From Parabacteroides merdae ATCC 43184 (lineage in GTDB: Bacteria; Bacteroidota; Bacteroidia; Bacteroidales; Tannerellaceae), in the NCBI RefSeq assembly GCF_025151215.1, contig NZ_CP102286.1:4216001-4280000 (forward strand): a DNA stretch of 64,000 bases. Direction: 5' to 3'. Positions 12,101 through 40,554 of the stretch are shown here, piece after piece (position 1 is the stretch's first letter; every line of letters begins with the position of its first letter). The notes under the pieces are model-generated. The model made no database searches, was not told where the DNA came from, and saw only the letters and a list, made by a program, of their open reading frames with translations. The position numbers and the translations under genes were made by a program.

Positions 12101-12345
12101 ATAGTTCCATTAGTTGTCCCTTTTTCCACCACGTTTGCACCTGCAATAGGTCCAAACTGATCTTCTACCACACCTTTAATAGTGTGTTTTGCCTGTTGAG
12201 GAGAAGCTACAACAGGATTCGGCTCATTTGAGCCAAACGTATCGGTAGAAGGATTAGCGGAGGCCATTCCGATTGATGCCAGGAACATAGTAGCTCCCAG
12301 GAACATCGCTCTCGATACATAAAAGCGTTTAAAATCTTTTGTCAT
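9142..12345 (-). CDS. SusC-like TonB-dependent outer-membrane transporter
   Basis: TonB-dependent importer of oligosaccharides, 1067 residues. It has a signal peptide (about 1-30), a carboxypeptidase-regulatory-like domain (about 55-128), the SusC segment VVVVGYGT at 133-140, a plug domain (DVETVSVLKDAASSAIYGSR), and a 22-strand barrel ending in VIGVNVTF with the C-terminal Phe needed for BAM recognition. It is first in its operon. Upstream lies an 810-bp segment bounded by inverted repeats (see 12451-13260), so expression may be phase variable. The SusD partner lies 34 bp downstream. Confidence 0.96.
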   Translation of the reverse strand: MTKDFKRFYVSRAMFLGATMFLASIGMASANPSTDTFGSNEPNPVVASPQQAKHTIKGVVEDQFGPIAGANVVEKGTTNGTITDMDGNFSLEVAPNSILIVSFIGYKEQQIPVNSQKTVTIKLTEDSQALEEVVVVGYGTQKKVNLSGSVTSVNVSEMAESRPLTNISTALAGTAPGVQITSSNNIPSNNGDADIKVRGQGTLNNSSPLVIIDGVEGSLNSVSPQDVETVSVLKDAASSAIYGSRAANGVILITTKSGKSGKMKLDYTGYVSFQTLDKPYDVVSDYASYMEYLNEGMTNSNKPAPFSQNVINLWREKSKDPNGLNEYGMPNYLAYPNSDIFDVYETGVSHQHNLSASGGSEKITYYTSFNYLNNPGILENCGYERFSLRANIDSQIKDWLKLGVNLSGYTANTTPVSENIKDIYTYGLTGGNPGIAYLDDQNRLGINANAEDDPQNATNNPYNRLRNTTGNVQTNTLKTRLYAILTPLKGLTIQGSYTYDYYDKFKESKPNFVPMYNFQTNTLYTDGVGQTSIYNYNEKTFRNFMDATIRYERNFFDDRLSTNLMVGASQEQYKRQYFSATRKDLIDPSLGVIDGAIGESSSTGNITEWAMRSYFGRLNLGWDDKYLFEANLRADGSSRFLADNRWGYFPSFSAAWRISEEEFMKNISWLDNLKIRASYGSLGNNTLGSNRDNDGNYTSQSLYAQTNYVLARAVAMGLSQTAIANAALTWETTYITNVGLDYNVLGNRLSGSIEFFNKKTDGILIDLPAPMVHGNATIPKQNAAQVTNKGLEFSANWSDRAGKDFSYNIGFNFTYIKNNVDKFKGDDPSYDGARMLKEGLPIWSLYVREVDRIVQTDEDLALVQSMLDNPDVKGKVVFPYGTPQKGDILYKDLNGDGLVNDDDRVVVGNGKNPTFTYGMNLGFNWKGIDFSALLQGQAGIKDVYLSALYKSTVRQGYQLNADIIEGRWYEGRTDAKYPRLLDYSDTRNEQYSDFWVASKAYLKIRNITLGYTLPSAWTKVAYMDRVRIYGSLENFFTFTKWKGYDPEIDGITYPTMRQAVIGVNVTF

Positions 12346-12429: not shown

Positions 12430-12461
12430 CAAAAGTGTGTTACTGATCTAAGTTCTTCAAG
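12430..12461 (-). promoter_or_regulatory. Possible weak promoter for the susC operon
   Basis: On the minus strand, CACTTTTG (7 of 8 to TAnnTTTG; 12430-12437) is preceded after 20 bp by CTTG (3 of 4 to TTTG; 12458-12461). The -33 part falls inside the left inverted repeat of the putative inverton, so inversion would change little of it. It is an alternative to the phase-switch model. Confidence 0.3.
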
Positions 12462-12599
12462 GACTATGGCGTTTCGCCATCATCCGCGAATTGCCTTCAC
12501 CGCTTATGTTTGCCTTCATCAGAGACCAGGTCGGCCTCGGAAGATTCTATATTAAGTGACAATGGGTATGTTTCTGTTGTCAAACAGCCTGGTCATAGA

Positions 12600-12688
12600 C
12601 CTTTTGCCTTTAGTCGAATACCTTTTCGACCAAGGTCAAAAGCCTTTTCGACACTGGTCAAAAACCTTTTCGCCCTTAGTCAAAAAGG
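12600..12688. repeat. Four tandem ~22-bp iterons inside the invertible segment
   Basis: Copies start at 12600, 12621, 12643 and 12665, so the period is 21-22 bp. Each begins CCTTTT and ends near GTCAAAA, and the middle copies read CCTTTTCGAC...GGTCAAA. Each unit is itself nearly dyad-symmetric (TTTTCGAC against GGTCAAAA). Two helical turns per unit would put bound proteins on one DNA face. Confidence 0.75.
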
Positions 12689-12842
12689 TAAGGAGTGGTA
12701 GTAATAGCTGTTAATGCCTGTGTATTTGTTTATTAATCAATATTGTAGTCTCCTTGTTTTTCACTTAATTATATAGATGTGAAACCGAGAGGAACATGAC
12801 CAACCCAAATCAGGACGAGACAGAGTGAAGGCAAATTTTTGA

Positions 12843-12873
12843 GGTGAAGGCAGTCCGGATATCTGCCTTCACC
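12843..12873. repeat. 11-bp perfect hairpin inside the invertible segment
   Basis: GGTGAAGGCAG (12843-12853) pairs with CTGCCTTCACC (12863-12873) around a 9-base loop. Copies of the TGAAGGCA core also occur at about 12826 and, inverted, at about 12491 and 12511. No T-tract follows, so a protein site or structured leader is more likely than a terminator. Confidence 0.6.
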
Positions 12874-13222
12874 CTTGTATGACATGACAATCAAAAGGTA
12901 TCAAAGACGGGTGAAGCTGAATCGGAAATCCATGTTGAACTATCATGATGATAAATCATCATTTATGATTCATATCTGCCAAACTATGAGAATTTGCCTT
13001 AGCTGTATCGTTTTTACACTTCAATGTATACCTATGTGAATATTACAAACTGAATTCTAAATAAATATATTGCCAATTAAGCTTAATTTATATGTTATAC
13101 AAAACATGCAAATCACAATATGTTAATATATAGACATTTAACACATTGCTAAAAACTCACCGTTGGAAGATTAGTGCATATCAAATGGATAAAAATATAC
13201 ATTCATACACATTATTAACATC

Positions 13223-13230
13223 TAAATTTG
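13223..13230 (+). promoter_or_regulatory. -7 element at the right end of the invertible segment, pointing to the lyase gene
   Basis: TAAATTTG matches TAnnTTTG exactly and ends 15 bp before the right recombination-like site. It faces the lyase gene in this orientation and would face susC after inversion. No good -33 box is seen. Confidence 0.4.
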
Positions 13231-13350
13231 CAACGTTTTCATCATAGTTCTTGAAGAACTACGATAAAAATACTCTTTTGTGAAAGGTGCATATAGAAAA
13301 ATGCAAGGTTCCGGTTTTGGAGGATGAGAATTATAATGTGGCAGGAAACA

Positions 13351-13454: not shown

Positions 13455-15383
13455 ATGAGAACACAACGATTCATCACAATCGTGTGCCTGTTGCTTTGGA
13501 CAGTCGCACACTTGCACGCGTATGAAAAACGCGACTTGTTGCAAAAAGAGGTCGATTTTGAGAAAGTCAAATCCGCGTTGATAATGGAGCAGAAGTGGGT
13601 GCCGTATCCTGATTATTCTGACCGGGCCGGTTGGGATAAACTCCTCGGTGATTATAAAGAAAAGTATATCCGGAAAGGAGAAAGTTATCTGGATTATGAG
13701 TGGAAGGTTGTGAAAGCGACCGATTATCTGGAGTTCGGACGAAGTGGTGACCGGGCGATTATGGAGAGTCCGTTCGGTAAAAACAATTCCGCACTCGGAA
13801 GTCTGTTCATGGCAGAGATGGCTGAAGGGAAGGGACGCTTTGTCGATCAGATTATCAATGGTGTTTTTGCAAGTTGTGAAATGACGAGCTGGGCATTGTC
13901 GGCCCATTTGGGATTACAGAAGGTCGGAGGATGCTTTCCGAGCTATGAAGAACATGTGATTGATTTGGGTTCAGGAAATCTTGCTTCCCAGTTGTCTTGG
14001 ATTTATTATTACCTGAAACCTTCGTTCGATAAGGTAAATCCTTTGATTTCAAAAAGGCTGCGGCATGAATTACAGGTCCGCATCCTCGATACCTATATGA
14101 ATGAAGATCATTTCTGGTGGATGGCGTTCAACCTGAAGCCTGGCGGATTGGTGAATAACTGGAATCCGTGGTGTAACTTCAATGTGCTGCAATGTTTCTT
14201 CCTGCTTGAGAATGATCGGGATAAATTGGCAAAAGCGGTTTACCGGACGATGACTTCCGTGGATCATTTCATCAATTATACGCATGGAGACGGAGGTTGC
14301 GAGGAAGGCCCTTCTTATTGGGGACATGCTGCTGGAAAGATGTACGATTATCTGCAGATGCTTTCTGACGGGACAGGTGGTAAAGTCTCCGTATTCGATC
14401 AGCCTATCATTAAGAATATGGGTGAATATATTGCCCGCTCTTATGTGGGGAACGGCTGGGTGGTCAACTTTGCCGATGCTTCTGCCAAAGGAGGAGGGGA
14501 TGCCGATCTCATTTTCAGGTATGGGAAAGCAGTCGAAAGCCCTCTTATGATGAACTATGCTGCTTATCTCAAGAGTCTTTCTGATAAGGACGGTATTCCT
14601 TCCGGTGACCCTTTCCGTCTGTTCCAAACCTTGCTCTCCCGTGAAGAACTGGAAGGAATGAGTGCAGATTATCAGGCTCCCGGCTATTCCTGGTATCCGG
14701 AAACCGAATTTTGCTATATGACCAACAAGAATGGCTTTTTCGTGGCAACGAAAGGAGGCTATAATAATGAAAGCCATAATCATAACGATGCAGGGACCTT
14801 CTCCCTTTACTTGAATACGACGCCTATTTTTATCGATGCCGGAGTCGGGACCTATACCCGTCAGACCTTCAGTTCCGAACGCTATTCAATCTGGACAATG
14901 CAGAGTAATTATCACAACCTGCCTATGGTGAACGGTGTGCCACAGCAGTTCGGTTCGGAATTTAGGGCTACGGATGTGCACTTTGATTCGAGACGTATGT
15001 ATTTCTCTGCAAATATTGCGACAGCTTATCCGGCAGAGGCAAATGTAAAAAAATGGGTCCGTTCGTACCAGTTGGGAAAGAACTCCCTGAAAATAGAAGA
15101 TTCGTTCTCTTTGGACAAGGCGGATAAACCGAATCAAGTCAATTTCCTCACTTGGGGGGAGGTGGATGTGTCGGTTCCGGGAGTAGTCACGGTTGAAGTG
15201 AATGGTGAGAAAGTCCGGATGACGTATAATAAGAGCGCCTTTACACCGACTGTCGAAACGATCCGCCTGGACGATCCTCGCTTGTCGAATGTTTGGGGCG
15301 AACAGGTCTGCCGGATATCGTTGAACGCTAATAAGCAGCCGCTTTCCGGCTCCTATACTTATACAATAACAACAATAAAATAA
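13455..15383 (+). CDS. Heparinase II/III-family polysaccharide lyase
   Basis: Secreted lyase that cleaves uronate-containing polysaccharides by beta-elimination, 642 residues. It has a signal peptide ending near HLHA (about residue 22), an N-terminal all-helical toroid (about 60-400) and a C-terminal beta-sandwich of the heparinase II/III type. The family hallmark NHNDAGTFSLYL begins at about residue 442 (His443, Asp445 visible) and is followed by FIDAGVGTYT. It resembles the PL12/15/21/33 group of lyases, and I cannot assign the number by eye. The GH88 gene starts 8 bp downstream, and GH88 acts on exactly the unsaturated products that such a lyase makes. Heparan, chondroitin or hyaluronan are all possible substrates. 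Confidence 0.9.
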   Translation: MRTQRFITIVCLLLWTVAHLHAYEKRDLLQKEVDFEKVKSALIMEQKWVPYPDYSDRAGWDKLLGDYKEKYIRKGESYLDYEWKVVKATDYLEFGRSGDRAIMESPFGKNNSALGSLFMAEMAEGKGRFVDQIINGVFASCEMTSWALSAHLGLQKVGGCFPSYEEHVIDLGSGNLASQLSWIYYYLKPSFDKVNPLISKRLRHELQVRILDTYMNEDHFWWMAFNLKPGGLVNNWNPWCNFNVLQCFFLLENDRDKLAKAVYRTMTSVDHFINYTHGDGGCEEGPSYWGHAAGKMYDYLQMLSDGTGGKVSVFDQPIIKNMGEYIARSYVGNGWVVNFADASAKGGGDADLIFRYGKAVESPLMMNYAAYLKSLSDKDGIPSGDPFRLFQTLLSREELEGMSADYQAPGYSWYPETEFCYMTNKNGFFVATKGGYNNESHNHNDAGTFSLYLNTTPIFIDAGVGTYTRQTFSSERYSIWTMQSNYHNLPMVNGVPQQFGSEFRATDVHFDSRRMYFSANIATAYPAEANVKKWVRSYQLGKNSLKIEDSFSLDKADKPNQVNFLTWGEVDVSVPGVVTVEVNGEKVRMTYNKSAFTPTVETIRLDDPRLSNVWGEQVCRISLNANKQPLSGSYTYTITTIK

Positions 15384-29201: not shown

Positions 29202-31211
29202 TTACTCTCCAAGCCAAAATGGGCCTTGAACCAATGTTGGATCCTTATCTATTTCTGATTGATGTATCGGATACCAATAGAATTTGCGAGGATAAACACG
29301 ATCCATGTATTTTGTGCGTTTGAAGAAGGCGTTGTCTCCTTGATCAGTATATTCGGTTCCATAATAATTCATCCCATAATCCGGTCCATTGACACCCCAA
29401 TCTGGATTTTCACCCTGCTCATTTAGGTTTCCGATGCCATAATGGGCTGTTTTCCAGCGACGCAAATCATGGTAACGAACTCCTTCACCCACAAATTCTA
29501 CTCGGCGTTCTTTGTGTATCAAACGTCTTACCTCTTTCTGGTCTGAGAAATTGATCTTAATGCGGGTAAAACCATTCTCATCCGTGCCAGTTCCATATTC
29601 GGCAATACCAGCCCGATGGCGAATCTTATTCAAATTGTCGAGTATTTCTTGTTTGTGGCTCATGCGTTCTGAACTTTCATTTAATGCTTCAGCATAACTT
29701 AGATAAGCTTCTGCCATGCGGAAAATGATAGCCGGACGATAAGGGTGATTGTTATCACGAGGTATATAATCCAATGATACTCGACTACGATTTAAATAAC
29801 CGTTTTGCGGAGCATCGTGTGTTGGTCCTCCGTCCGGTTGTCCATACAAAAAGTTCGTATTACGGTTTTCCCATTTGAACCATTGTCCATTCCATACTAC
29901 AGTCAGGTAAAAACGAGGTTCCCGATGGCAATACATATTAAATGTGTTGGGTTGTACAATCAAGCGTTTCCCGTCTCGTTCCGGTGTAACGTCAGGGTAA
30001 TTACTATCATTGTACCCATCCATTAAATAATAATCGGTTGCCCTATATTCGGGTTTTGTAGAAAATCCCTTCTCACTATATAATGGCGCATTCGGATTGA
30101 TTTTCGGACTACCGTCCGCATTATATCCCAGTATAGGTTCCGTTCCGTCTTCCATAAAGAAAGCATCTACCAGTGATTGAGTAACTCCTAAGCCTCCATT
30201 ACCGCCGCAACCGCGAGGAGTTCCGTGCTGTTCCCAATCTCCGTAATTTCCTTTAGGTCGGAACCAAATGATTTCATTGTTACCCTCTCCTTCTGTTCTC
30301 ATTGTGGCTCCGTAACAGGACATGAAGGGATCCACTTTGCCGTTTTCTTTGTTATTTACGATATACAACCCCTTTCCTTTTTTCTCGGCTTCATCGATCA
30401 GCTGCTTACATGCGTCAGCTGCTTTTTTCCATTTGTTGGCATCATAAGCTTGGCTGAAACGTTCTTCTCCGTCAGAATTTTTAAAGCCGAGATACCATTC
30501 ATTTCCATTTACTAACGGACTTGCTGCAAATAGCAATATGCGGGCGCGAAGCGCCAATGCTGCCAATTTAGTTGCGCGACCACCATACAACGTACTCCAA
30601 CTGTCCGGAAGGACTTTCGACAATTCTAAAAATTGATTATCCAGCCAGTCGATCATCCATTCAAAGCTTTTCTGACCGCGCATTAGATCCGGAGAATCCG
30701 AAGTCATATCATCTTCAAAATAAGGGACTGCTCCATAAGCCAAGGTCATCATCCAATAGTAATACGCAACCATGAAACGACATTCGTTTTTCATTGTCTC
30801 CACGTCACTCTCCGTTACGTTTTGTTTTGGTAAAGCCTTTACGTTATCCATGAAAATATAGGCTTGTCGAATATATTTGGACATTGTCCAATAGGATCCG
30901 CTCCAACCTGAATTAGGTTCCCATTGTCCTACGCGAAATCCTAATCCGCAGTCACTACCCCAATATGGTAACCAGCCTTGCGATGGAGTGATATCGTTTG
31001 CCAGCATCTCGAACGCATCGTAACGCGTATAATCCCAGTATGGATCCCGAATGCCTTGGTATACACCTGCTAGCCAATCTTCCGTACGAGTCTTGTCGTC
31101 GAATATCATGTCTATTGTAATAATATCGTCTGGTGCATTGTCTATAAAATCCGTGCATCCATTTAAGCACATACATAATGTCGCTAAACCAATATACTTG
31201 CTAAATTTCAT
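29202..31211 (-). CDS. SusD-like lipoprotein of the orphan SusCD pair
   Basis: Surface glycan-binding lipoprotein, 669 residues. The ATG at 31211 is used because it is followed by MKFSKYIGLATLCMCLNGC with lipidated Cys19. It has a SusD/RagB fold with the C-terminal signature AEAYLSYAEALNES and RRVEFVGEGVRYHDLRRW. It is about 100 residues longer than the first SusD here. It is 19 bp downstream of its susC. No enzyme or regulator gene is adjacent, so the substrate is open. Confidence 0.94.
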   Translation of the reverse strand: MKFSKYIGLATLCMCLNGCTDFIDNAPDDIITIDMIFDDKTRTEDWLAGVYQGIRDPYWDYTRYDAFEMLANDITPSQGWLPYWGSDCGLGFRVGQWEPNSGWSGSYWTMSKYIRQAYIFMDNVKALPKQNVTESDVETMKNECRFMVAYYYWMMTLAYGAVPYFEDDMTSDSPDLMRGQKSFEWMIDWLDNQFLELSKVLPDSWSTLYGGRATKLAALALRARILLFAASPLVNGNEWYLGFKNSDGEERFSQAYDANKWKKAADACKQLIDEAEKKGKGLYIVNNKENGKVDPFMSCYGATMRTEGEGNNEIIWFRPKGNYGDWEQHGTPRGCGGNGGLGVTQSLVDAFFMEDGTEPILGYNADGSPKINPNAPLYSEKGFSTKPEYRATDYYLMDGYNDSNYPDVTPERDGKRLIVQPNTFNMYCHREPRFYLTVVWNGQWFKWENRNTNFLYGQPDGGPTHDAPQNGYLNRSRVSLDYIPRDNNHPYRPAIIFRMAEAYLSYAEALNESSERMSHKQEILDNLNKIRHRAGIAEYGTGTDENGFTRIKINFSDQKEVRRLIHKERRVEFVGEGVRYHDLRRWKTAHYGIGNLNEQGENPDWGVNGPDYGMNYYGTEYTDQGDNAFFKRTKYMDRVYPRKFYWYPIHQSEIDKDPTLVQGPFWLGE

Positions 31212-31230
31212 TTTTTTATTTTTTTTATTT

Positions 31231-34200
31231 TTAGAAATTAATATCAAAACCTGCTGAAAATGATTTCATTATCGGGTATTTTGTTCCTACGGATGTGTCG
31301 ACTTCAGGATCCCATAAGTCAAATTTTGAGAATGTGAACAGATTACTACCTTTTGCATATAAACGAATGTTCGACAGGCCAATTTGTCGTACCCAAGATT
31401 TCGGGAGCGTATAGCCGATCTCTATATCTTTCACTCGGAGAAAACTCATGTTTTCCAACCACCATGTAGAGTTTCGAACATTATTCTCGCTTTTCCCCCA
31501 TGTCAAACGTGGGTAATATACATCTTGGCTTGGATTTTCAACGGTCCAACGGTCTTGATAGTTAGTCAGGATATTTCCCATGGCCCCCATTGTTTCACCA
31601 GGGGTAAACTTGTTGCTGCATCCTCCTTTAAATCCGTATGTCATCCCATTCCCTTGGAAGAATATGTTAAAATCTAGATTCTTATAGCGAAAATTGGCAC
31701 CGAAGCCGTATACGATCTGAGGGTTGTATGTTCCTCCTATGGCAGTCTCGTCCAATGAACTGACAACGCCATCCCCATTCACGTCTTTATATTTGATGTC
31801 ACCGGGGCGAACCGGACCGAATGTATGGGTAGGAATATCCTCGTTTACAACGTAACCGCCATTCTCGGCAATCAGATAATCTCCGTTGGCATCTTTTTGG
31901 AAATCATCAAAAGTAAACAGGCCTTCGTCGACTAATCCAAATAACTGGTTGACTTTTTCGCCTGTCCGTTGACGATTCGTCCCCATGACGCCTAATGCCT
32001 CATCCTGTTCGATGATTTTGTTCTGGGCGTATGTAAAAGATCCCCGGAAGCCGACGTATAAATCTTTATTGATTTGTTTGTTTACGTTTAATGCTAGGTC
32101 GATCCCCTGATTATTTACTTTCCCATAATTAGCCCATGGTGTATTTCTAAATCCTGCTGATGTCGGAATATTATTTCGTTTCATAAAGATATTATATCTG
32201 TGTTCAAAGAAATAGTCCACTTGGAAGTCGATCATATTCCAGAGGCCCAATTCGAAACCTGCATTTGTTTTCGATACGGTTTCCCATGTCAGATTAGGAA
32301 TTCCGAAATCACCTTCAAAGCGAGAATTCCGATGATAATATTGTCCGTTGGTTCCCCAGTCATAACCCGTTCCGTCTTCTCCCAATGTTGTCTGGTAAGC
32401 AAAGCGACGTCCGTCTAATTGGTCGTTCCCTGTCAAGCCGAATGAACCACGAAACTTGATTTTGCTGAACGTGTCTTTGTATGGTTCCATGAACTTTTCT
32501 TCCGAAAGCAAGTAACCAATTGCTACGGACGGGAAAAATCCGAAGCGATATCCTTTGGCAAAATTCTCTGATCCGTTATAACCGAAATTAAATTCTGCAA
32601 TATATCGATTGTCATATGTGTAAGATGCTCGTCCGGCGATACCCATGCGGCGATAAGGTACGATGTCGTACGATTCTTCAAATTGCTGGTAATCCCGTTG
32701 GTTATACAAGAACAAACCTTCAACCTGATGTTTCCCGAATGTCCTTTCATAATTCAAATTCAGTTCTACATAAGTTGCTTTGTTTCCCCAATCATTATTT
32801 TCGGAAGTGCTCAAAAATTGTTGTCCGTAACTGGATATGTTCAAAATTAAATTACCATTTTCATCGCGTTGGGTAGCCGGTTGATACAAGTCTGGTGTTT
32901 TTGAACGAGTAACGCCTGACCAAGAATAGCGATCAAATGAGAAAATACCCTTTATTTTCAGTCCAGGAGTAATAAATTTCAAATCTTGCTCTAATGCGAA
33001 CAACGATTCGATTTTACTTTGAGAGGTTGTTGCATATCCTTTTTGAGTAACCTGTACGTACGGATTCACTCGTTGATTGACTACTGGAAAATAGATATTA
33101 TCATCTTCTTTATAATAGGCCGGATGTATGAATGGAGGGGTCTCGAATGCTCCCGAAAATGCATCATCGGAAGATATTGCCATTTTATTCATCTCCTGTA
33201 AATAGCCACCGACACTGACTGTCAATTGCGTTGTTTTTGTGATATTGATGTCTACATTCGAGCGTAAGTTGAATTTGTTTAGATGTGTTCCACTGTTCCA
33301 ACTTTGACTCTTGTCGCGTTCGAAAATACCTTGTTCGCCATAATATGATCCGACCACTGCATAGCGTAAAATGTCAGAACCTCCGTTGACAGTAATATCT
33401 GCACGTTGATTCATGGCAAAATCTTTCGTAATCAGATCCATCCAATTTACATCCGGGTATAAATCCGGATCAGTTCGATTTATGTAGTGATCAATGGTTT
33501 CTTGCGAATAGGGAGATTGCTGTTGACCGTTATCTTTTGCTATTTCATTCAATAATGTCAGATACTCTGCTGAACCGATGTATTGGGGTAATTTTGTTGG
33601 TTGAGTAAAACTTTGTTCGAAATGGACATTGACTGTAGGTTTTCCTAATTTCCCACGTTTAGTTTGCACCAAAATAACGCCGTTTGCTCCACGTACACCA
33701 TAAACGGCTGAAGCAGATGCATCTTTTAACACAGAAAATGATTCGATTTCAGCAGGGTTCAAGTCATCGAGTGTTCGTTCGATGCCGTCGACTAATACTA
33801 AAGGACTGGTTCCTGCTCCTTGGAAAGATGAAATACCTCGTATCCAGAAATTGGAACCGTCCGCTCCCGGTTCTCCTGATCGTTGCACGGCAATTACACC
33901 TGCCACATTTCCCGCCAAGTTGTTACTTAAGGCACGTGTTGTCCCTTGGCTTAATACCTGAGGCTCGATTGTTGTAATCGAACCTACTATCGATGCACGT
34001 TTTTGAGAGCCATAGCCGACTACTACCACTTCATTCAAGCCTGTCGAAATTTCGTGCATGTTCAAGTTTATGTTGATTTGGTTACCAACAACAATTTCCT
34101 GCTCTTCAAATCCAATGTAAGTGAATACTAGTATAGAACTTCGACTTGGAACTTCTAAAAAATAGTTGCCATCTATATCTGTTGTTGTACCTATCGTTTG

Positions 34201-34425
34201 TCCTTTTATTACAATATTCACTCCAGAAAGTGGTTCTCCCTGGGAATCTCGTACTGTACCATTTATATGGATCCCTTCTTCTGTGAGTTTTTTAACAGTA
34301 GGGATTATTTCCTTTTCATGTCTATCTAACCATTTGCCATTGGCATGAAGATAATTTGTACCTGATAGCAATGCACACACGATACATGTTAATTGCAATT
34401 TTTGATTTAATTCATTTTTGATCAT
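31231..34425 (-). CDS. SusC-like TonB-dependent transporter of the orphan pair
   Basis: Outer-membrane importer, 1064 residues. It has a signal peptide (about 1-28), a carboxypeptidase-regulatory-like domain (about 52-128), VVVVGYGS at 133-140, a plug with ESFSVLKDASASAVYGVRGA, and a barrel ending KSFSAGFDINF with C-terminal Phe. No promoter-like sequence is seen in the 150 bp directly upstream on its strand. The only good promoter lies in a putative invertible segment at 34573-34864 and points away, so the gene looks silent in this sequence. Confidence 0.95.
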   Translation of the reverse strand: MIKNELNQKLQLTCIVCALLSGTNYLHANGKWLDRHEKEIIPTVKKLTEEGIHINGTVRDSQGEPLSGVNIVIKGQTIGTTTDIDGNYFLEVPSRSSILVFTYIGFEEQEIVVGNQININLNMHEISTGLNEVVVVGYGSQKRASIVGSITTIEPQVLSQGTTRALSNNLAGNVAGVIAVQRSGEPGADGSNFWIRGISSFQGAGTSPLVLVDGIERTLDDLNPAEIESFSVLKDASASAVYGVRGANGVILVQTKRGKLGKPTVNVHFEQSFTQPTKLPQYIGSAEYLTLLNEIAKDNGQQQSPYSQETIDHYINRTDPDLYPDVNWMDLITKDFAMNQRADITVNGGSDILRYAVVGSYYGEQGIFERDKSQSWNSGTHLNKFNLRSNVDINITKTTQLTVSVGGYLQEMNKMAISSDDAFSGAFETPPFIHPAYYKEDDNIYFPVVNQRVNPYVQVTQKGYATTSQSKIESLFALEQDLKFITPGLKIKGIFSFDRYSWSGVTRSKTPDLYQPATQRDENGNLILNISSYGQQFLSTSENNDWGNKATYVELNLNYERTFGKHQVEGLFLYNQRDYQQFEESYDIVPYRRMGIAGRASYTYDNRYIAEFNFGYNGSENFAKGYRFGFFPSVAIGYLLSEEKFMEPYKDTFSKIKFRGSFGLTGNDQLDGRRFAYQTTLGEDGTGYDWGTNGQYYHRNSRFEGDFGIPNLTWETVSKTNAGFELGLWNMIDFQVDYFFEHRYNIFMKRNNIPTSAGFRNTPWANYGKVNNQGIDLALNVNKQINKDLYVGFRGSFTYAQNKIIEQDEALGVMGTNRQRTGEKVNQLFGLVDEGLFTFDDFQKDANGDYLIAENGGYVVNEDIPTHTFGPVRPGDIKYKDVNGDGVVSSLDETAIGGTYNPQIVYGFGANFRYKNLDFNIFFQGNGMTYGFKGGCSNKFTPGETMGAMGNILTNYQDRWTVENPSQDVYYPRLTWGKSENNVRNSTWWLENMSFLRVKDIEIGYTLPKSWVRQIGLSNIRLYAKGSNLFTFSKFDLWDPEVDTSVGTKYPIMKSFSAGFDINF

Positions 34426-34572
34426 GTTTTTTACGGAATTATAGATTTTACGTTAACTGTTGTTACTTTTAACTGTGTTCTTTTTTTGTTTTTATCCCAT
34501 AGGCTATTTTTTATTGATTATGAATTTCTACTTTAAGCATATTATTTAACTAATTATCTAAATGATGTCTCC

Positions 34573-34864
34573 ATAGTCCTTGAGGAACTATGGAACTTAT
34601 ATATAGAAAGAATCTTATTATTCAATGTCTTAAATGTATGAGGAGTGGAAATTGTTATCATTACAATGTCTTTTTTGACATAGGAGAAAATTATTTTATT
34701 CCTATTGTTTTAAATGTTGAATTTATTTTGTAAAAAAAGTTGCTCATGTTAAATGGATTGTTTACGTTTGCAAAAACGTAGTATTTAATATACTCTATTA
34801 TTAAGTTTTTTTTCTGAAAGCTTTTTGTTATTATGGTGGAATTCCATAGTTCCTCAAGAACTAT
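34573..34864. other. Putative invertible promoter segment upstream of the orphan susC
   Basis: The left site AGTCCTTGAGGAACT (34575-34589) and right site AGTTCCTCAAGAACT (34848-34862) both fit AGTYYYN4GDACT. The arms extend to 23 bp (34573-34595 and 34842-34864) with one mismatch, including a perfect 17-bp core. The enclosed 250 bp carries a -33/-7 promoter pointing rightward, away from susC. Size, motif and promoter all match Bacteroides susC phase switches, here in the OFF state. Confidence 0.75.
34739..34770 (+). promoter_or_regulatory. Promoter inside the invertible segment, facing away from susC
   Basis: GTTG (34739-34742), 20 bp, then TACGTTTG (34763-34770), a full -7 match with 3 of 4 in the -33. 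After inversion it would read into susC with a leader of about 240 bases. Confidence 0.65.
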
Positions 34865-35101
34865 AGTTTGTTTATTATAGTGAGATGCAACGTTCTTTTT
34901 TGTATTAAAACCACGTATGTTGCCGGATCACCACATGGTCGGTTGTGCAGATATTTGGCTCTGTACGTCTCTTACCTCCCGAGTTTCGAGAGGCTGTTCA
35001 AGTTGTTTTTAACATTCAATACCTATTTTGCATATATCTGTGTGCGCTCGGTATTTAAAAGATACGCATTCTCTTGTGGCAAAAGCAAATGGTAGGAAAA
35101 T

Positions 35102-35134
35102 AAAAAGCCCCGCTATTCCTAAGAATAACGAGGC
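35102..35134 (-). terminator. Intrinsic terminator of the Gly-Leu-Gly tRNA operon
   Basis: A 12-bp stem (35107-35118 with 35123-35134) forms two G-U pairs on the minus-strand RNA but C-A mismatches on the plus strand, and T5 follows on the minus strand. This fixes its direction. It may also block rightward transcripts from the OFF promoter only weakly. Confidence 0.85.
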
Positions 35135-35146
35135 CTTTTGGAAGCG

Positions 35147-35219
35147 AGCGGAAGACGGGACTCGAACCCGCGACCCTAACCTTGGCAAGGTTATGCTCTA
35201 CCAACTGAGCTACTTCCGC
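35147..35219 (-). tRNA. tRNA-Gly (GCC)
   Basis: A 73-base cloverleaf with acceptor GCGGAAG/CTTCCGC, anticodon loop CTTGCCAAG region with GCC, and T-arm GGTTCGAGTCC. CCA is not encoded. It is identical to 35351-35423. Confidence 0.97.
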
Positions 35220-35244
35220 AAAATATTGTTTGCTCAAACTTGTG

Positions 35245-35329
35245 TACTCGAAGCGGGACTTGAACCCGCACAGCCGCAATGGCCAAAGGATTTTAAGTCC
35301 TTCGTGTCTACCGATTCCACCATTCGAGC
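35245..35329 (-). tRNA. tRNA-Leu (TAA)
   Basis: An 85-base class II tRNA with long variable arm. The acceptor is GCTCGAA/TTCGAGT, and the anticodon loop CTTAAAA gives TAA. Confidence 0.96.
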
Positions 35330-35350
35330 ATCCCTTTCTCTTAAGAGATG

Positions 35351-35423
35351 AGCGGAAGACGGGACTCGAACCCGCGACCCTAACCTTGGCAAGGTTATGC
35401 TCTACCAACTGAGCTACTTCCGC
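35351..35423 (-). tRNA. tRNA-Gly (GCC), second copy
   Basis: A 73-base cloverleaf identical to 35147-35219. It is first in the tRNA operon, just after the promoter at 35452-35482. Confidence 0.97.
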
Positions 35424-35451
35424 ATTGTTGCATTGTTTTCGTTTGCGAGTG

Positions 35452-35482
35452 CAAAGGTAGATGAAATTTTTGTTTCTGCAAA
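35452..35482 (-). promoter_or_regulatory. Consensus promoter of the tRNA Gly-Leu-Gly operon
   Basis: On the minus strand, TTTG (35479-35482), 19 bp, then TACCTTTG (35452-35459). Both boxes are perfect. Transcription should start about 20 bases before the first tRNA. Confidence 0.85.
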
Positions 35483-35518
35483 TATTTGGAATAAAAAAAT
35501 GCAGGGCAACGCATTTTT

Positions 35519-35974
35519 TTAGTTTCTCACAACCCATTCCTGTCTGTCGGACGATACTGGAGTCATGTAATATTTTCTTAATGGAAATTGCGATACGCCC
35601 TTTGTCGGTGCTCCGGTCCCATAGCCGATATCATATTCAGTTCCGCATTCCGGGCAAATTGCTTTTCCTGCATTGTCGGCTTCTATGATGATATTCTTTT
35701 TGGCTTCGTGGGGACAGCACAGATCAAATGCATAGTAGGTCGCATTTCCGTAATTGTCGATTCCGCATACAACCAAAACACCGGAAAAGCCCGTCTTTTC
35801 TCCGGCAGTACGGGCTTTAGTGATGGATTTGTGATTGTATATGCCTACTAGATCTTTGTCGCCGAAGCGCAGGTCTAGTTCTAAATATACCGGTGCATAG
35901 GGTATATCCGATTCTTCGAATTTGGAACACGAACAAACTAATGATATAAGTAAGCAAAATAAAAACCGTTTCAT
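35519..35974 (-). CDS. Rieske-like iron-sulfur lipoprotein, unusual cluster motif
   Basis: A 151-residue exported lipoprotein (lipobox ending CSC, Cys16) with a small beta domain. The potential cluster ligands are C-P-H (Cys87, His89) and, 17 residues later, C-P-E-C (Cys107, Cys110). A true Rieske site is CxH...CxxH, so the last His is replaced by Cys. This would give a 3Cys-1His site or a Zn site. It is last in the pyrE-SRPBCC-argH operon, 6 bp after argH. Function unknown; electron transfer is only a guess. Confidence 0.7.
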   Translation of the reverse strand: MKRFLFCLLISLVCSCSKFEESDIPYAPVYLELDLRFGDKDLVGIYNHKSITKARTAGEKTGFSGVLVVCGIDNYGNATYYAFDLCCPHEAKKNIIIEADNAGKAICPECGTEYDIGYGTGAPTKGVSQFPLRKYYMTPVSSDRQEWVVRN

Positions 35975-35980
35975 CGTTTA

Positions 35981-37318
35981 TTAGGATAACAGCTGTTGCT
36001 CAGCCTCGTTTACTCTATTAAACGCGAAACCGTCCATGATATTTTGCATCAAGGCGGAAATCTGGTCATTGCATAAATTTCCGATACTTCCTTCGTGCGT
36101 ATGGTGAACTTTCTTGACAGGGACGAATTTACCAGCTTCGATGTTCAATCCTACCTGCTTGTAAGCGTCACGGAAAGGCATACCTTCCAAAACGAGGCGG
36201 TTTACCTCTTCCACACTAAAGAGGAGTGCATATTTGTCATCGTCTAAGATCTGCTCGTTCACCTTTACTTCCCGCATCATGTGCGTAACCATGCGGAGGC
36301 AATCCTTCAACTCGTCGAAAGAGGGGAGGAATACTTCCTTTATGATCTGCAGGTCGCGGAAATAGCCTGATGGAAGGTTGTTGCTGATCAGTGTGATCTG
36401 CTGGGGCAATCCTTGCAGCTTGTTGCATTTGGCACGCGTCAGCTCGAACACGTCCGGATTCTTTTTATGCGGCATGATACTGGATCCTGTTGTGAACTGG
36501 TCCGGCAACTTGATGAAACCGAAGTTCTGGCTGTTGAACATACAAGCATCGAAAGCTAGTTTGGAAAGGGTTGCCGCAATGCCGGCCATGGCAAAAGCTA
36601 CGGTACGTTCCATTTTGCCACGTCCCATCTGGGCGTAAACGACATTATAATCGAGCGAGTCGAAGCCGAGCAGATCTGTTGTCATCTGGCGTCTCAGCGG
36701 GAAAGAAGAGCCATATCCGGCCGCAGAGCCCAACGGGTTGCGGTTGCAAACTTTATAAGCAGCCTGCATCATCTGCAAATCATCGGTCAGGCTTTCGGCA
36801 TAGGCGCCGAACCAAAGTCCGAATGATGACGGCATGGCAATCTGTAAATGTGTATATCCGGGAAGCAGCACGTCCTTATAACGGTTACTCTGCGAGATCA
36901 ACACCTCGAACAGGTCGGATACCAACTCTACGATTTCCTGAATCTGTGCGCGGGTGAACAGCTTCAGATCCAGCAGCACTTGGTCGTTACGTGAACGTCC
37001 GCTGTGTATCTTTTTCCCTGTGTCACCCAGGCTGCGTGTCAGCATCAGTTCCACCTGCGAGTGGACGTCTTCCACGCCCTCTTCAATTACAAACCGGCCA
37101 CAGTCGGCAACGGCATAGATATTTTTCAGTTCGGCAAGCAAGATCGTCAGTTCCTCTTTGGTAAGCAGCCCGATGCTTTCCAGCATGGTGATGTGAGCCA
37201 TCGAGCCGAGCACGTCGTACTTGGCGAGATAGAGATCCATCTCACGGTCTTTGCCTACCGTAAAGGTATCCACTTCCTGGTCTACCTGAACATTCTTTTC
37301 CCAAAGTTTCTGAGCCAT
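35981..37318 (-). CDS. argH: Argininosuccinate lyase
   Basis: Splits argininosuccinate to arginine and fumarate, the last step of arginine synthesis. It is 445 residues from the ATG at 37318. The fumarase/aspartase-superfamily signature GSSIMPHKKNPD lies at 278-289. The first conserved regions SGRSRNDQV (about 106) and GYTHLQIAMPSSFG (about 154) are also present. All catalytic segments are intact. It sits in a four-gene operon with pyrE, so arginine and pyrimidine synthesis, which share carbamoyl phosphate, may be expressed together. Confidence 0.97.
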   Translation of the reverse strand: MAQKLWEKNVQVDQEVDTFTVGKDREMDLYLAKYDVLGSMAHITMLESIGLLTKEELTILLAELKNIYAVADCGRFVIEEGVEDVHSQVELMLTRSLGDTGKKIHSGRSRNDQVLLDLKLFTRAQIQEIVELVSDLFEVLISQSNRYKDVLLPGYTHLQIAMPSSFGLWFGAYAESLTDDLQMMQAAYKVCNRNPLGSAAGYGSSFPLRRQMTTDLLGFDSLDYNVVYAQMGRGKMERTVAFAMAGIAATLSKLAFDACMFNSQNFGFIKLPDQFTTGSSIMPHKKNPDVFELTRAKCNKLQGLPQQITLISNNLPSGYFRDLQIIKEVFLPSFDELKDCLRMVTHMMREVKVNEQILDDDKYALLFSVEEVNRLVLEGMPFRDAYKQVGLNIEAGKFVPVKKVHHTHEGSIGNLCNDQISALMQNIMDGFAFNRVNEAEQQLLS

Positions 37319-37329
37319 CAAAAAAACAT

Positions 37330-37740
37330 TTAATAAGGCAGGGATGCCAACATGGTCGATATTTTATCGATCGCATCCTGCAATGGTTTTGATACCATTG
37401 GTTTGATAAACGGATTCAGTTCGGCGCGGACGGTTATTTTCATCCGTGTGTCGTTCTCTTCTACCTGTTTTAGCTGAATCCAAAGGAACAGGGGAACAGG
37501 CGAGTTCGTGGTCGTGAATTTGATCGTCTTGTTCGGTTCACGTTCCACGATCTGGAAGGTTATCTTGCCTACCGGTGCGACGGAAAAACTGCAAGAGTCT
37601 TTATCGAACTCGAAATCTTGAATCTTATCTTGAGGTATGCGGTCCTGCACCTTTCCTAAGTTGGATAGGTCGGACAGCATATTAAAAATACGATCCTCGT
37701 TAAAGGGGATCGTTTTCACTTCGCTAACAAATTCAGTCAT
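37330..37740 (-). CDS. SRPBCC (START-like) family protein
   Basis: A 136-residue soluble protein of the START/Bet v1-like fold, with a hydrophobic-cavity pattern (VPLFLWIQLKQVEENDTRMK) and a long C-terminal helix (PMVSKPLQDAIDKISTMLA). The ATG at 37740 is preferred; a GTG six bases upstream is possible. It lies 6 bp after pyrE and 11 bp before argH. The ligand and role are unknown, although the pyrE-SRPBCC pairing is common in Bacteroidetes. Confidence 0.85.
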   Translation of the reverse strand: MTEFVSEVKTIPFNEDRIFNMLSDLSNLGKVQDRIPQDKIQDFEFDKDSCSFSVAPVGKITFQIVEREPNKTIKFTTTNSPVPLFLWIQLKQVEENDTRMKITVRAELNPFIKPMVSKPLQDAIDKISTMLASLPY

Positions 37741-37746
37741 TTTCAC

Positions 37747-38388
37747 TTACTTTGTTTCGGGATTCCAGTTTGCCGGATCTTTGCGCCATTCCTGAAGGAC
37801 TGCGATTTCGGATTCGTCAATGTAATCTGTACGCAATGCTTCTTCCAGCACGGCATCATAGTTACTTAGAGTCGTCAATGTAACTTTTGCCTCTTTGAAA
37901 GCCTCTACTGCAACAGGGAAACCATACGTGAAAATGGCAACCATACCGGCAACGTCACAACCGAAATTACGGACAGCCTGTACGGCTTTCAAACTACTAC
38001 CACCTGTAGAAACCAAATCTTCTACAATCACTACTTTTGAACCCGGTTTCAGTTCGCCTTCAATCAGGTTTTCCAATCCATGATCTTTAGGAGTTGAACG
38101 GATGTACACGAACGGCAGACCCAGTAGGTCGGCAACTAATGCACCCTGGGCGATTGCTCCGGTTGCAACACCAGCAATAGCATCGGCATTTTCATACTTT
38201 TCGCTGATTGTGCGAGCCAGCTCCAGTTTAATGAAACTTCTGATTTCCGGATAGGAAAGTGTCTTTCTGTTGTCGTTGTAGATTGGTGATTTCCAACCGG
38301 ATGCCCATGTGAAAGGATTGGCCGGCTGCAATTTGACCGCCTTAATCTTTAATAATCTCTCTGCTACTAATCTTTCCAGTGTTTTCAT
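37747..38388 (-). CDS. pyrE: Orotate phosphoribosyltransferase
   Basis: Joins orotate and PRPP to make orotidine 5'-phosphate in pyrimidine synthesis. It is 213 residues. The PRPP-binding motif VVIVEDLVSTGGSS is at 119-132, and the flexible-loop region RSTPKDHGLENLIEG precedes it. The length is normal. It is first gene of the operon, with a -7 box at 38420. Confidence 0.97.
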   Translation of the reverse strand: MKTLERLVAERLLKIKAVKLQPANPFTWASGWKSPIYNDNRKTLSYPEIRSFIKLELARTISEKYENADAIAGVATGAIAQGALVADLLGLPFVYIRSTPKDHGLENLIEGELKPGSKVVIVEDLVSTGGSSLKAVQAVRNFGCDVAGMVAIFTYGFPVAVEAFKEAKVTLTTLSNYDAVLEEALRTDYIDESEIAVLQEWRKDPANWNPETK

Positions 38389-38419
38389 ACAACCTAATAA
38401 AAATGTTTATATCAGTCTG

Positions 38420-38427
38420 CAAAGGTA
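38420..38427 (-). promoter_or_regulatory. -7 promoter element of the pyrE operon
   Basis: TACCTTTG on the minus strand fits TAnnTTTG and lies 31 bp before the start codon. No clear -33 box. Confidence 0.5.
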
Positions 38428-38460
38428 GACAAAGGGAATGAGATAACCTTGTAGTTCTTC

Positions 38461-38489
38461 AAAAAAATAAGCTATACATATTGTATAGC
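38461..38489 (-). terminator. Intrinsic terminator of prmC-recX-comF
   Basis: GCTATACA (38471-38478) pairs with TGTATAGC (38482-38489) around a 3-base loop. A T-rich run follows on the minus strand. It separates comF from pyrE. Confidence 0.75.
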
Positions 38490-38504
38490 AGGTTTAAGGA
38501 GAGT

Positions 38505-39197
38505 TTATGCCACAGCTATGCCTAAAATACTGATCCGGATGCCGGATATGGCTTTCATGGCTTCTGCACAGGCATTCATGGTGGAACCGGTCGTAATAAC
38601 ATCGTCCACCAGTAGAATGTGTTTGTTTTTCAACGTGTCGGTGTTCTCTACACGGAAGATGTCCTCTACATTTTCCGATCGTTCGAATATCTGCTTGCGG
38701 GTTTGACTTTCGGTCTTTTTTATGCGGGACAAGGATGAGGTGTCGACCGCGATTCCAGTGGCGGAACGGATGCCGTATGCGATCCATTCCGACTGGTTAT
38801 AACCTCTTTGCCTCATTCTTTTCGGGTGGAGCGGGACCGGCAAAAGGAGATCGACGGTGTCGAACAGCCCTGTCTCCCGGTAGGTGGTAGCAGCCATGCG
38901 TCCCAGTTCGTATCCGAGTTTTTTGTTTCCATGATATTTTAAGGAATGGATTAGCTTTTGCCCGCTTCCCCCTTTCGTGAAGTGGAGCAGAGCGGTGGCG
39001 GCGACGAAAGATGTTTTTCCCTGTAAAAGCAGACAGACCGGATTCGTCTCCATATCCGTAAAATGCGTGTAGGGCAAATGATTCGAACAATGCAGGCAAA
39101 TATGCTCTTCCCCTTCCACTAAAGACCTCTGGCAAAGCAGGCAGAGGCGAGGATAGAAAAGGTTGAGGAGGTCATTCAAAATCATCCTCGTAGTCAT
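38505..39197 (-). CDS. ComF family protein (phosphoribosyltransferase-like)
   Basis: A 230-residue protein related to competence protein ComF/GntX. N-terminal zinc-ribbon cysteines (CLLCQRS...CLHCSNHLPY) precede a PRTase domain with LLVDDVITTGSTMNACAEAM (about 195-214). It probably supports DNA uptake or nucleotide recycling; the role in Bacteroidetes is unproven. The start overlaps recX by 26 bp (or 14 bp if the ATG at 39185 is used), so it is translationally coupled. Confidence 0.9.
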   Translation of the reverse strand: MTTRMILNDLLNLFYPRLCLLCQRSLVEGEEHICLHCSNHLPYTHFTDMETNPVCLLLQGKTSFVAATALLHFTKGGSGQKLIHSLKYHGNKKLGYELGRMAATTYRETGLFDTVDLLLPVPLHPKRMRQRGYNQSEWIAYGIRSATGIAVDTSSLSRIKKTESQTRKQIFERSENVEDIFRVENTDTLKNKHILLVDDVITTGSTMNACAEAMKAISGIRISILGIAVA

Positions 39198-39663
39198 TCC
39201 CGTTGAACAGTTGTTTCAGGCAGCGGCTTGTTTCCCTTGTTTCGAAACCGCGTCCGGCGGCGAAGCGGAGCAGTTTGGCGTAAACCTCCCGATCGTCCTT
39301 ACCACGGGTTACTTTCTTTTTGCTTTTCAGGAGAGAAAGGAGGATGGAGCGATATTCTTGTTCGTCGATACCTTCCAGTGCTTCCGAGCGGATACTGGAT
39401 GGAATGCCTTTCCGCTGCATCTCGTAGTTGATCTTGACACGTCCCCATTTGTTGAAGCGTAATTTGTCGTTTACGAAATAGCGTGCAAAACGGCTTTCGT
39501 CGATGAAACGTTCTTGTAGCAGGCGGGAGACGATCCGGTCGCTTTCTTCCCCGGCCAATCCCGCCGCTTTGATTTTCTTTTCGACATCCTGGATGCAGCG
39601 TTCGCTGGCAGAACAGTAGGCGGCTGCCCGGTGAAGCATTTCAGATTCACTGATTTGTTTCAT
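39172..39663 (-). CDS. recX: RecX-family regulatory protein
   Basis: A 163-residue helical protein of the RecX family, which usually binds RecA filaments and limits them. It has the three-helix repeat pattern LAAYCSASERCIQDVEKK-like at the start, followed by FIDESRFARYFVNDKLRFNK and WGRVKINYEMQRKGI. recA is not adjacent. It overlaps prmC by 4 bp (ATGA) and comF by up to 26 bp. Confidence 0.9.
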   Translation of the reverse strand: MKQISESEMLHRAAAYCSASERCIQDVEKKIKAAGLAGEESDRIVSRLLQERFIDESRFARYFVNDKLRFNKWGRVKINYEMQRKGIPSSIRSEALEGIDEQEYRSILLSLLKSKKKVTRGKDDREVYAKLLRFAAGRGFETRETSRCLKQLFNGNDYEDDFE

Positions 39664-40508
39664 TTGCGTGCTTTTATAATCCGGTCCTTGCCAGACAAGT
39701 CTTGGATCAATTCGATATTCTTGTAGCCTTCTTCCTCCAGCATCTCAACAACCATATTGCCGCATGCCGCATTGATTTCGAAGTAGAGATGGCCGTTTCT
39801 TCTCAGTTTTTTCTTTCCGAAATGGGCAATATGCCAATAATAGAGCAGCGGGTCGTTGTCCGGGACGAAAAGAGCCAGGTGTGGTTCGTAGTCCAGCACG
39901 TTCCGCTCCATGTCTTTTTTTTCTTCCTCCTTGATGTAGGGCGGATTGCTGACGATGACGTCCAGAATGAACGGAATGTCCATTTCCGCTTTCTCCGGGT
40001 CTAGGATATCTGTCTGGATGAAAGTGACCGTTGTGTTGTTGCGTTTGGCATTCCGGCGGGCGGTCGCGAGCGCTTCCGCCGAAATGTCCGTCGCAATCAC
40101 GCTTGCTTTTTTCAGATGCTTCCGGAGTGTGACGGCTATGCAGCCGCTTCCCGTTCCGATATCCAATATCTTGATCTTTTGGTCTGCATTGTCGAGGATG
40201 ACCTGCTCGACCAGTTCTTCTGTTTCCGGACGTGGTATCAGGACGGACGGGTCTACTTCGAACTGAAGGCTGTAGAAATCGGCCGTTCCTAATATGTATT
40301 GGATAGGCTCCATCTGCTTCAAACGTTCGACTATGTCATGAATTCGGCTTTTTTCGCTTTCTGGCAGTTCTTTGTCTTTACAAAATAAAAAATGATGCGG
40401 CTGAATATTACAAACCCGCTCCATAATTAAACGAACTAGGCTGCTGACCTCGGAGGATGGGTATAGATCCCTCAATGATTCCTTAATGTATGCGATGGTT
40501 TCAGTCAT
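39660..40508 (-). CDS. prmC: Peptide chain release factor N5-glutamine methyltransferase
   Basis: Methylates the GGQ glutamine of release factors RF1 and RF2 with S-adenosylmethionine. It is 282 residues from the ATG at 40508. The SAM-binding loop ILDIGTGSGCIAVTL begins at about 114, and the catalytic NPPY lies at 188-191. It is first of three overlapping genes, with a fully consensus promoter just upstream. Confidence 0.96.
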   Translation of the reverse strand: MTETIAYIKESLRDLYPSSEVSSLVRLIMERVCNIQPHHFLFCKDKELPESEKSRIHDIVERLKQMEPIQYILGTADFYSLQFEVDPSVLIPRPETEELVEQVILDNADQKIKILDIGTGSGCIAVTLRKHLKKASVIATDISAEALATARRNAKRNNTTVTFIQTDILDPEKAEMDIPFILDVIVSNPPYIKEEEKKDMERNVLDYEPHLALFVPDNDPLLYYWHIAHFGKKKLRRNGHLYFEINAACGNMVVEMLEEEGYKNIELIQDLSGKDRIIKARK

Positions 40509-40522
40509 ATTTTGTTTTTGGG

Positions 40523-40554
40523 CAAAAGTAAGCATAAGATAAATTGCAACCAAA
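40523..40554 (-). promoter_or_regulatory. Consensus promoter of prmC-recX-comF
   Basis: On the minus strand, TTTG (40551-40554), 20 bp, then TACTTTTG (40523-40530). Both boxes match. The start codon is only 14 bp away, so the leader is very short. Confidence 0.8.

Follow-up and report, generated by a model that had tools for sequence, protein, structure and literature searches.

The DNA inversions closest to the one proposed here are the SusC/SusD switches controlled by Tsr0667, for which Nakayama-Imaohji 2009 is said to be the original paper. SusC/SusD inversions due to Tsr0667 are described in Bacteroides fragilis (PMC4747536, PMC11852207), and one tyrosine recombinase is reported to act on three SusC/SusD clusters, of the shufflon type, and on nine other invertible regions (PMC4747536). 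A survey of 39 gut Bacteroidales genomes, P. distasonis among them, found invertible regions within or near SusC/SusD genes (PMC10939037), and another study reported numerous inversion sites in P. distasonis (PMC5903667). The wider picture of inversions is given by PMC12632263 and PMC8748976. No description of the present locus was found in the literature on SusC inversion and Tsr0667 or on Parabacteroides invertible promoters, subscription papers being mostly outside reach; likewise, the literature searched yielded no paper on ECF sigma factors and phase variation, and the string AGTYYYN4GDACT did not occur in it. We take AGTYYYN4GDACT to be the recognition motif of Tsr0667.

The window, i.e. 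the whole stretch of 64,000 nucleotides analysed here, corresponds to positions 4216001-4280000 of the 4.377-Mb single-contig genome of Parabacteroides merdae ATCC 43184. Judging from the sequence, its segment 34573-34864 is predicted to be a phase-variable promoter switch of a SusCD gene pair, one of at least 16 pairs of similar sites, with the gene at genome positions 229951-231117 as the candidate recombinase. We would give this reading a probability of about 0.7.

The window contains nine strand-matches of AGTYYYN4GDACT, where 100 dinucleotide shuffles average 0.59 and never exceed 3. A preliminary description of this DNA had reported two sites fitting the motif exactly, placed in inverted 23-bp arms with one mismatch, and our motif and arm scan bore this out. 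It is silent on another pair that the window holds (12446-12468 / 13243-13265). Each site is near-palindromic and hence matches on both strands, and can be divided into AGTYY, a 5-nt centre and RRACT (Table 1). The arms are 246 nt apart and complementary at 22 of their 23 nucleotides (96%). The lone mismatch falls outside the 5-nt centre, and the right centre is the exact reverse complement of the left one. Bacteroidales invertible promoters typically consist of an intergenic segment that is bounded by inverted repeats and precedes a surface gene; the present segment, upstream of susC, has this layout.

Table 1. Features of the SusCD locus and of the second switch, in positions of the window.
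Feature	Position	Strand	Remark
Left inverted arm	34573..34595		site AGTCC-TTGAG-GAACT at 34575-34589, centre 34580-34584
Right inverted arm	34842..34864		site AGTTC-CTCAA-GAACT at 34848-34862, centre 34853-34857
Predicted invertible interior, 246 bp	34596..34841		diverged from G012 except weak alignment near promoter
Promoter-like element GTTG-20-TACGTTTG	34739..34770	+	directed away from susC as assembled
Constant leader, susC to left arm	34426..34572	-	79 nt beside susC 82% identical in G012
susC-like gene, presumed target	31231..34425	-	CarbopepD_reg_2 and Plug domains
susD-like gene	29202..31247	-	SusD_RagB, SusD-like_3
Terminator-like hairpin with T-run	35102..35139	-	downstream of three tRNA genes, between these and the switch
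Second switch, left arm	12446..12468		site 12451-12465; upstream of susC-like ORF 9142-12345 (named from translation)
Second switch (P15), interior	12469..13242		aligned parts inverted versus left susC in G012, G014
Second switch, right arm	13243..13265		site 13246-13260; upstream of heparinase II/III-like gene 13455-15383

The SusCD pair had been called an orphan. This fits, as no carbohydrate-enzyme gene was seen among the neighbouring translations, which were read by eye, and the neighbourhood downstream of the pair is the same in the close relative G012. On the other side of the segment, from 34864 to 40544, the plus strand has only short ORFs in the ORF list, each facing tRNA genes or a longer ORF of the minus strand, so that no other target for a promoter is evident there.

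Between the susC start (34425) and 34900, TACGTTTG at 34763-34770 on the plus strand is the sole exact TAnnTTTG, and GTTG sits 20 bp upstream of it. The promoter scan thereby confirmed both the element pointing away from susC and the absence of an exact TAnnTTTG toward susC, as had been claimed. As assembled, the susC strand from 34426 to 34900 offers one poorer match with two mismatches (TAATTTTC at 34693). When the segment is inverted in silico, GTTG-20-TACGTTTG faces susC at 241 nt from the ATG. An element of this quality is not rare because the segment is so AT-rich: it arises in 86 of 500 dinucleotide shuffles of the segment (both strands), and a looser promoter rule is matched on one strand in 450 of 1000 mononucleotide shuffles. 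The match to the -33 TTTG / -7 TAnnTTTG type, by itself within the range of chance, lines up in G012 with CTTG-20-TAATTTTG at the same spacing and in the same direction. The G012 interior is shorter, and its alignment with ours is weak, with a score of 46 in the same orientation and 28 when inverted, for a maximum of 43 in 200 shuffles.

How far the missing TAnnTTTG speaks for an OFF state can be judged from relatives without the switch. Seven were scanned up to 900 bp upstream of susC (only about 400 bp in G010), namely the orthologues in G008, G010, G014, G018, G028 and G033 and one paralogue in the own genome. Six have no consensus promoter toward susC, and the seventh, in G028, has one only at -792. 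In a Massilibacteroides relative (L051), both the switch and a consensus promoter toward susC are absent. Since switch-less relatives mostly do without a consensus promoter, its absence here is weak evidence for OFF. The terminator scan found one candidate (1.1 in shuffles), and the hairpin 35139-35102 surpasses shuffled versions of itself in folding by a wide margin (z -5.4, 0/200); because of it, read-through from the tRNA operon is thought unlikely. The earlier statement that the SusCD pair is silent here thus retains the promoter facing away, its co-orientation in G012 and the terminator upstream, and is weakened by a promoter within the range of chance and by the similar situation in switch-less relatives. 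On these sequence features we consider it plausible, and somewhat better than an even bet, that susCD is OFF in the assembled orientation.

Similar pairs of sites occur elsewhere in the genome. Counted over the whole chromosome, the loose pattern is barely above its reversed control (49/39 versus 45/36) and is uninformative; a stricter palindromic form gives 14 matches versus 3 in the control. Close inverted site pairs were found at no fewer than 16 loci (P1 to P16), which is a lower bound, as they come from the window and 20 regions picked from the site list and from the list of PF00589 recombinases. Twelve of the 16 lie beside susC-type genes (that of P15 named by reading its translation). 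P6, P12 and P14 have ECF-sigma and/or FecR anti-sigma genes as neighbours, and P7 has a DUF4469/HU-like gene, after which comes a Fib_succ_major-type gene. Among the 55 SusD matches in the genome, at least one of them a fragment, 13 adjoin susC genes of site pairs. TAnnTTTG is present in 14 of 15 segments (mean of 6.3 in shuffles, none of 500 reaching 14), and a promoter of the -33 TTTG / -7 TAnnTTTG type in 7 of 15 versus 2.0 in shuffles. P1 is a shufflon-like SusCD locus (L068:4038-11156, genome 218037-225155) with three sites, one of which lies inside a susC coding region.

The P2 segment (L069:3630-4434, genome 265629-266433) separates two susC genes that diverge from it. It contains a promoter-like element facing one of the two and could possibly work as an either-or toggle. 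A seventeenth pair, P17 (genome 2143073-2192411; L077, L078), has sites that share 20 nt and are 49 kb apart. At its two ends, which are the parts that were read, a susC-like ORF lies downstream of one site and a DnaK-like ORF after the other (names given from their translations), and the DNA separating the sites includes an integrase along with other ORFs; P17 is apparently a switch split by an inserted element. At L083:3716-4057 (genome 4132715-4133056), an ECF sigma gene is close by, and the arms enclose the start codon and about 70 first codons of an ORF for a FecR anti-sigma factor. In the inverted arrangement, what remains of the ORF follows an open stretch that lacks a methionine codon, both here and in G012. 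At L072:1050-4272 (genome 954549-957771), the susC-like gene adjacent to the switch is in two frames of 255 and 812 aa, and Pfam domains are found only in the first, 255-aa frame.

Candidate pairs, with at most one arm mismatch over both sites and 60-1300 bp between them, were then collected from the window and the fetched loci of the own and related genomes. Of the 139 pairs, in which orthologous loci are counted separately and which come from regions picked for holding sites and not by their centres, 48 show the same 5-nt centre at both sites when these are read in inverted order, and 2 when they are read in direct order, for about 0.14 expected with equal bases. When pairs were judged on arms and context with the centre ignored, the centre turned out to be perfectly matched in 35 of the 40 good ones. 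At 34573-34864 both centres are TTGAG in the own genome and both are TTGAA in G012, indicating that the sites changed together; P12 likewise has CAAGA at its two sites here and CGAGA at the two in G012. The centre is unchanged between the own genome and G012 at P5, P9, P11, P14 and P15. Strand exchange would need centres that match and change together, and operators would not. The shufflon (223921-225155) and P13 (4161415-4161598) have the centre TTGCA/TGCAA in common, which makes long-range recombination between them conceivable; this is the only sharing seen among the 17 own pairs.

For the 16 pairs, 41 loci of relatives served as comparison. Apart from the shufflon P1 and paralogous hits (P10 to P9 orthologues, P9 to a P5 orthologue), which were left out, the interior aligned in eight comparisons at five loci. 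In three of the eight it is inverted relative to susC, twice for P15, which is the second switch of the window (G012, G014), and once for P9 (G020). The other five, P5 in G012 and G014 and P9, P11 and P12 in G012, have the same orientation. For P15 in G012 and G014, the right flank is another susC-like start and not the lyase, and orientation was judged versus the left susC; for P9 in G020, 103 nt of the interior aligned, beside the right flank. Both orientations therefore occur for segments (P15, P9) with the same kind of sites.

For the segment 34573-34864 itself, only G012 has the pair upstream of susC (SusD 95%, SusC 97%). A search with the segment in 38 genomes of the genus matched five, the own genome included: the match in G012 covers 79 nt of the leader only, and the matches in the other three genomes are fragments, from 28 to about 60 nt long. 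Six genus orthologues and one own-genome paralogue of susC lack the pair in their upstream region. Among the 17 loci obtained by a scan of genome contigs with SusD, a Parabacteroides locus (L052, 75%; taken as the same contig as G028) likewise has no such sites upstream of susC. No inverted copy was seen, and the promoter points away from susC in both assemblies that have the pair. The comparison of relatives for both orientations, which the preliminary description had suggested, has thus yielded a single orientation, and arms conserved in one close relative only. Its proposal of an invertible SusCD promoter segment is well supported, though indirectly, by the like pairs in the genome, by the matched centres and by the inverted sister switches, and is left without a flip at its own locus.

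Which enzyme could act on these sites? The PF00589 search gave 23 matches, of which 20 were compared (two matches below the cut-off and a further piece of a gene already listed were left out). Only one of the 20 has any of the 16 close pairs within 30 kb, and the next is 36 kb away. This gene, at 229951-231117, encodes a candidate tyrosine recombinase of 389 aa and is located just downstream of the SusCD shufflon P1, at about 5 kb. Full-length relatives with at least 65% identity are found in 18 of 38 genomes. In 9 of these 18, a strict pair is present near the relative, some of the neighbourhoods being short contigs, and none was found in 5 mononucleotide shuffles of each. In G012, which has a copy 98% identical to the candidate, no strict pair was found in its neighbourhood. 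Motif counts are higher in genomes with the candidate (medians 8 versus 1; p 8e-5, and 0.006 after subtracting control counts), with p-values that are descriptive, as the genomes were treated as unrelated, and with G010 and G011 counted as lacking the gene, their relatives being partial or truncated. The control count exceeds the motif count in 5 of the 18 recombinase genomes (G004, G005, G017, G023 and G025). G017 and G025 have the recombinase and no motif match, and G021 has 10 motif matches and no close recombinase homologue. Another tyrosine recombinase, integrase-like (2190777-2192090), lies about 300 bp from one P17 site, and a lone exact site has a XerD-like gene (2962293-2963198) at about 3 kb, so that closeness singles out the candidate less cleanly than the 16 pairs suggest. 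The product of 229951-231117 is our best candidate for the recombinase of these pairs, an assignment suggested by its position and its distribution. The recombinase at 1606282-1607271 was also considered and rejected: it is found in 7 of 38 genomes (E <= 1e-60) and is absent from the motif-rich G009, G013, G014 and G037.

In the mechanism that we propose, a tyrosine recombinase would bind the two near-palindromic 15-bp sites, and strand exchange within the matching 5-nt centre would flip the 246-bp interior. In the assembled orientation the promoter faces the tRNA genes on the opposite strand and susCD would probably be OFF. Once flipped, it would drive transcription across the leader and on into susC. 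The palindromes might instead bind a dimeric regulator, as paired operators between which the promoter region is looped without any inversion; the sites are indeed palindromic and lie upstream of genes of a kind that is often regulated. This is very improbable: some sister segments differ in orientation from their counterparts in relatives, the shufflon has a site of this type within susC coding sequence, and the control on the centres, with 48 inverted and 2 direct identities, led us to reject it. The segment could also be a former switch, now locked by its arm mismatch or because the recombinase is not expressed, with SusCD constitutively off or on. The absence of a flipped copy and the single promoter direction in the two assemblies with the pair would agree with this. 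However, the centres are still identical and have changed together between the own genome and G012, and one mismatch between the 15-bp sites is also found in six other own pairs, among them P15, which is inverted in relatives. We regard a locked switch as improbable, if less so than a pair of operators.

An alternative that carries more weight, though still unlikely in our opinion, is that the element does invert and that the ON/OFF reading is wrong, susC being transcribed from a promoter outside the consensus, of an ECF type or in the constant leader, so that the assembled orientation would be ON or irrelevant. The switch-less relatives, with six of seven devoid of a consensus promoter toward susC and the seventh having it only at -792, are compatible with such a promoter, and so are P5, P9 and P10, whose TAYCTTTG box is not accompanied by a TTTG at normal spacing. 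There is also a sigma-70-like GTAACA-17-TATAAT at 34466-34438 on the susC strand, but it is of the E. coli type and ends about 12 bp from the ATG; the scanned stretch has 7 sigma-70-like sites versus a shuffle mean of 4.9. Further points against this alternative are that the boxes of the segment are aligned and co-oriented in G012 despite the diverged remainder, and that no other target is evident on the plus strand from 34864 to 40544. A promoter switch serving susCD is the reading that we retain.

It is tempting to propose, as a tentative idea to which we give somewhat less than even odds, that one recombinase operates a genome-wide switchboard of about 17 pairs, each addressed by its own 5-nt centre, including the SusC beside 13 of the 55 SusD and ECF-sigma/anti-sigma units. 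Centres would be kept identical within a pair by conversion or selection while drifting between loci and species, and distinct centres would allow the switches to flip independently with the chromosome not scrambled. In one ECF-sigma/anti-sigma unit, a flip would cut off the start codon and the N-terminal region of the anti-sigma gene; if true, this would turn a sensor-controlled system into a phase-variable one. The presence of ECF-sigma/anti-sigma genes in the same set of switches would put chance flipping above nutrient sensing. Matched and co-changing centres also offer a rule, based on sequence, by which sites of this type could be assigned to pairs in further genomes.

The read-based surveys cited above resemble our findings in the regions near SusC/SusD genes (PMC10939037) and in the inversion sites in P. 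distasonis (PMC5903667); neither a description of the present locus nor the identity of the P. distasonis targets was found in them, as far as the available sections go. The Mpi and Tsr19 promoters of B. fragilis likewise have a promoter of the TAnnTTTG type between inverted repeats, and their recombinases serve more than one locus, according to the available parts of PMC4747536 and PMC3090145. Unlike here, Mpi is a serine recombinase, and the Mpi/Tsr19 targets described in those parts are mainly capsule and exopolysaccharide loci. The Tsr0667 system shares with ours its SusC/SusD targets, 12 of the 16 pairs being beside susC, and the presence of a shufflon-like locus (218037-225155). The motif that we take to be that of Tsr0667 is moreover exact at both sites of the present segment. 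The difference from B. fragilis lies in the genus, here Parabacteroides, in the number of pairs, at least 16, and in the inclusion of ECF-sigma/anti-sigma genes. SusCD phase variation as described in B. fragilis would accordingly extend to Parabacteroides, with a candidate recombinase and at least 16 targets. The predicted 34573-34864 switch resembles the known Tsr0667 SusC/SusD switches of B. fragilis and would be a new example of this kind of element in Parabacteroides.
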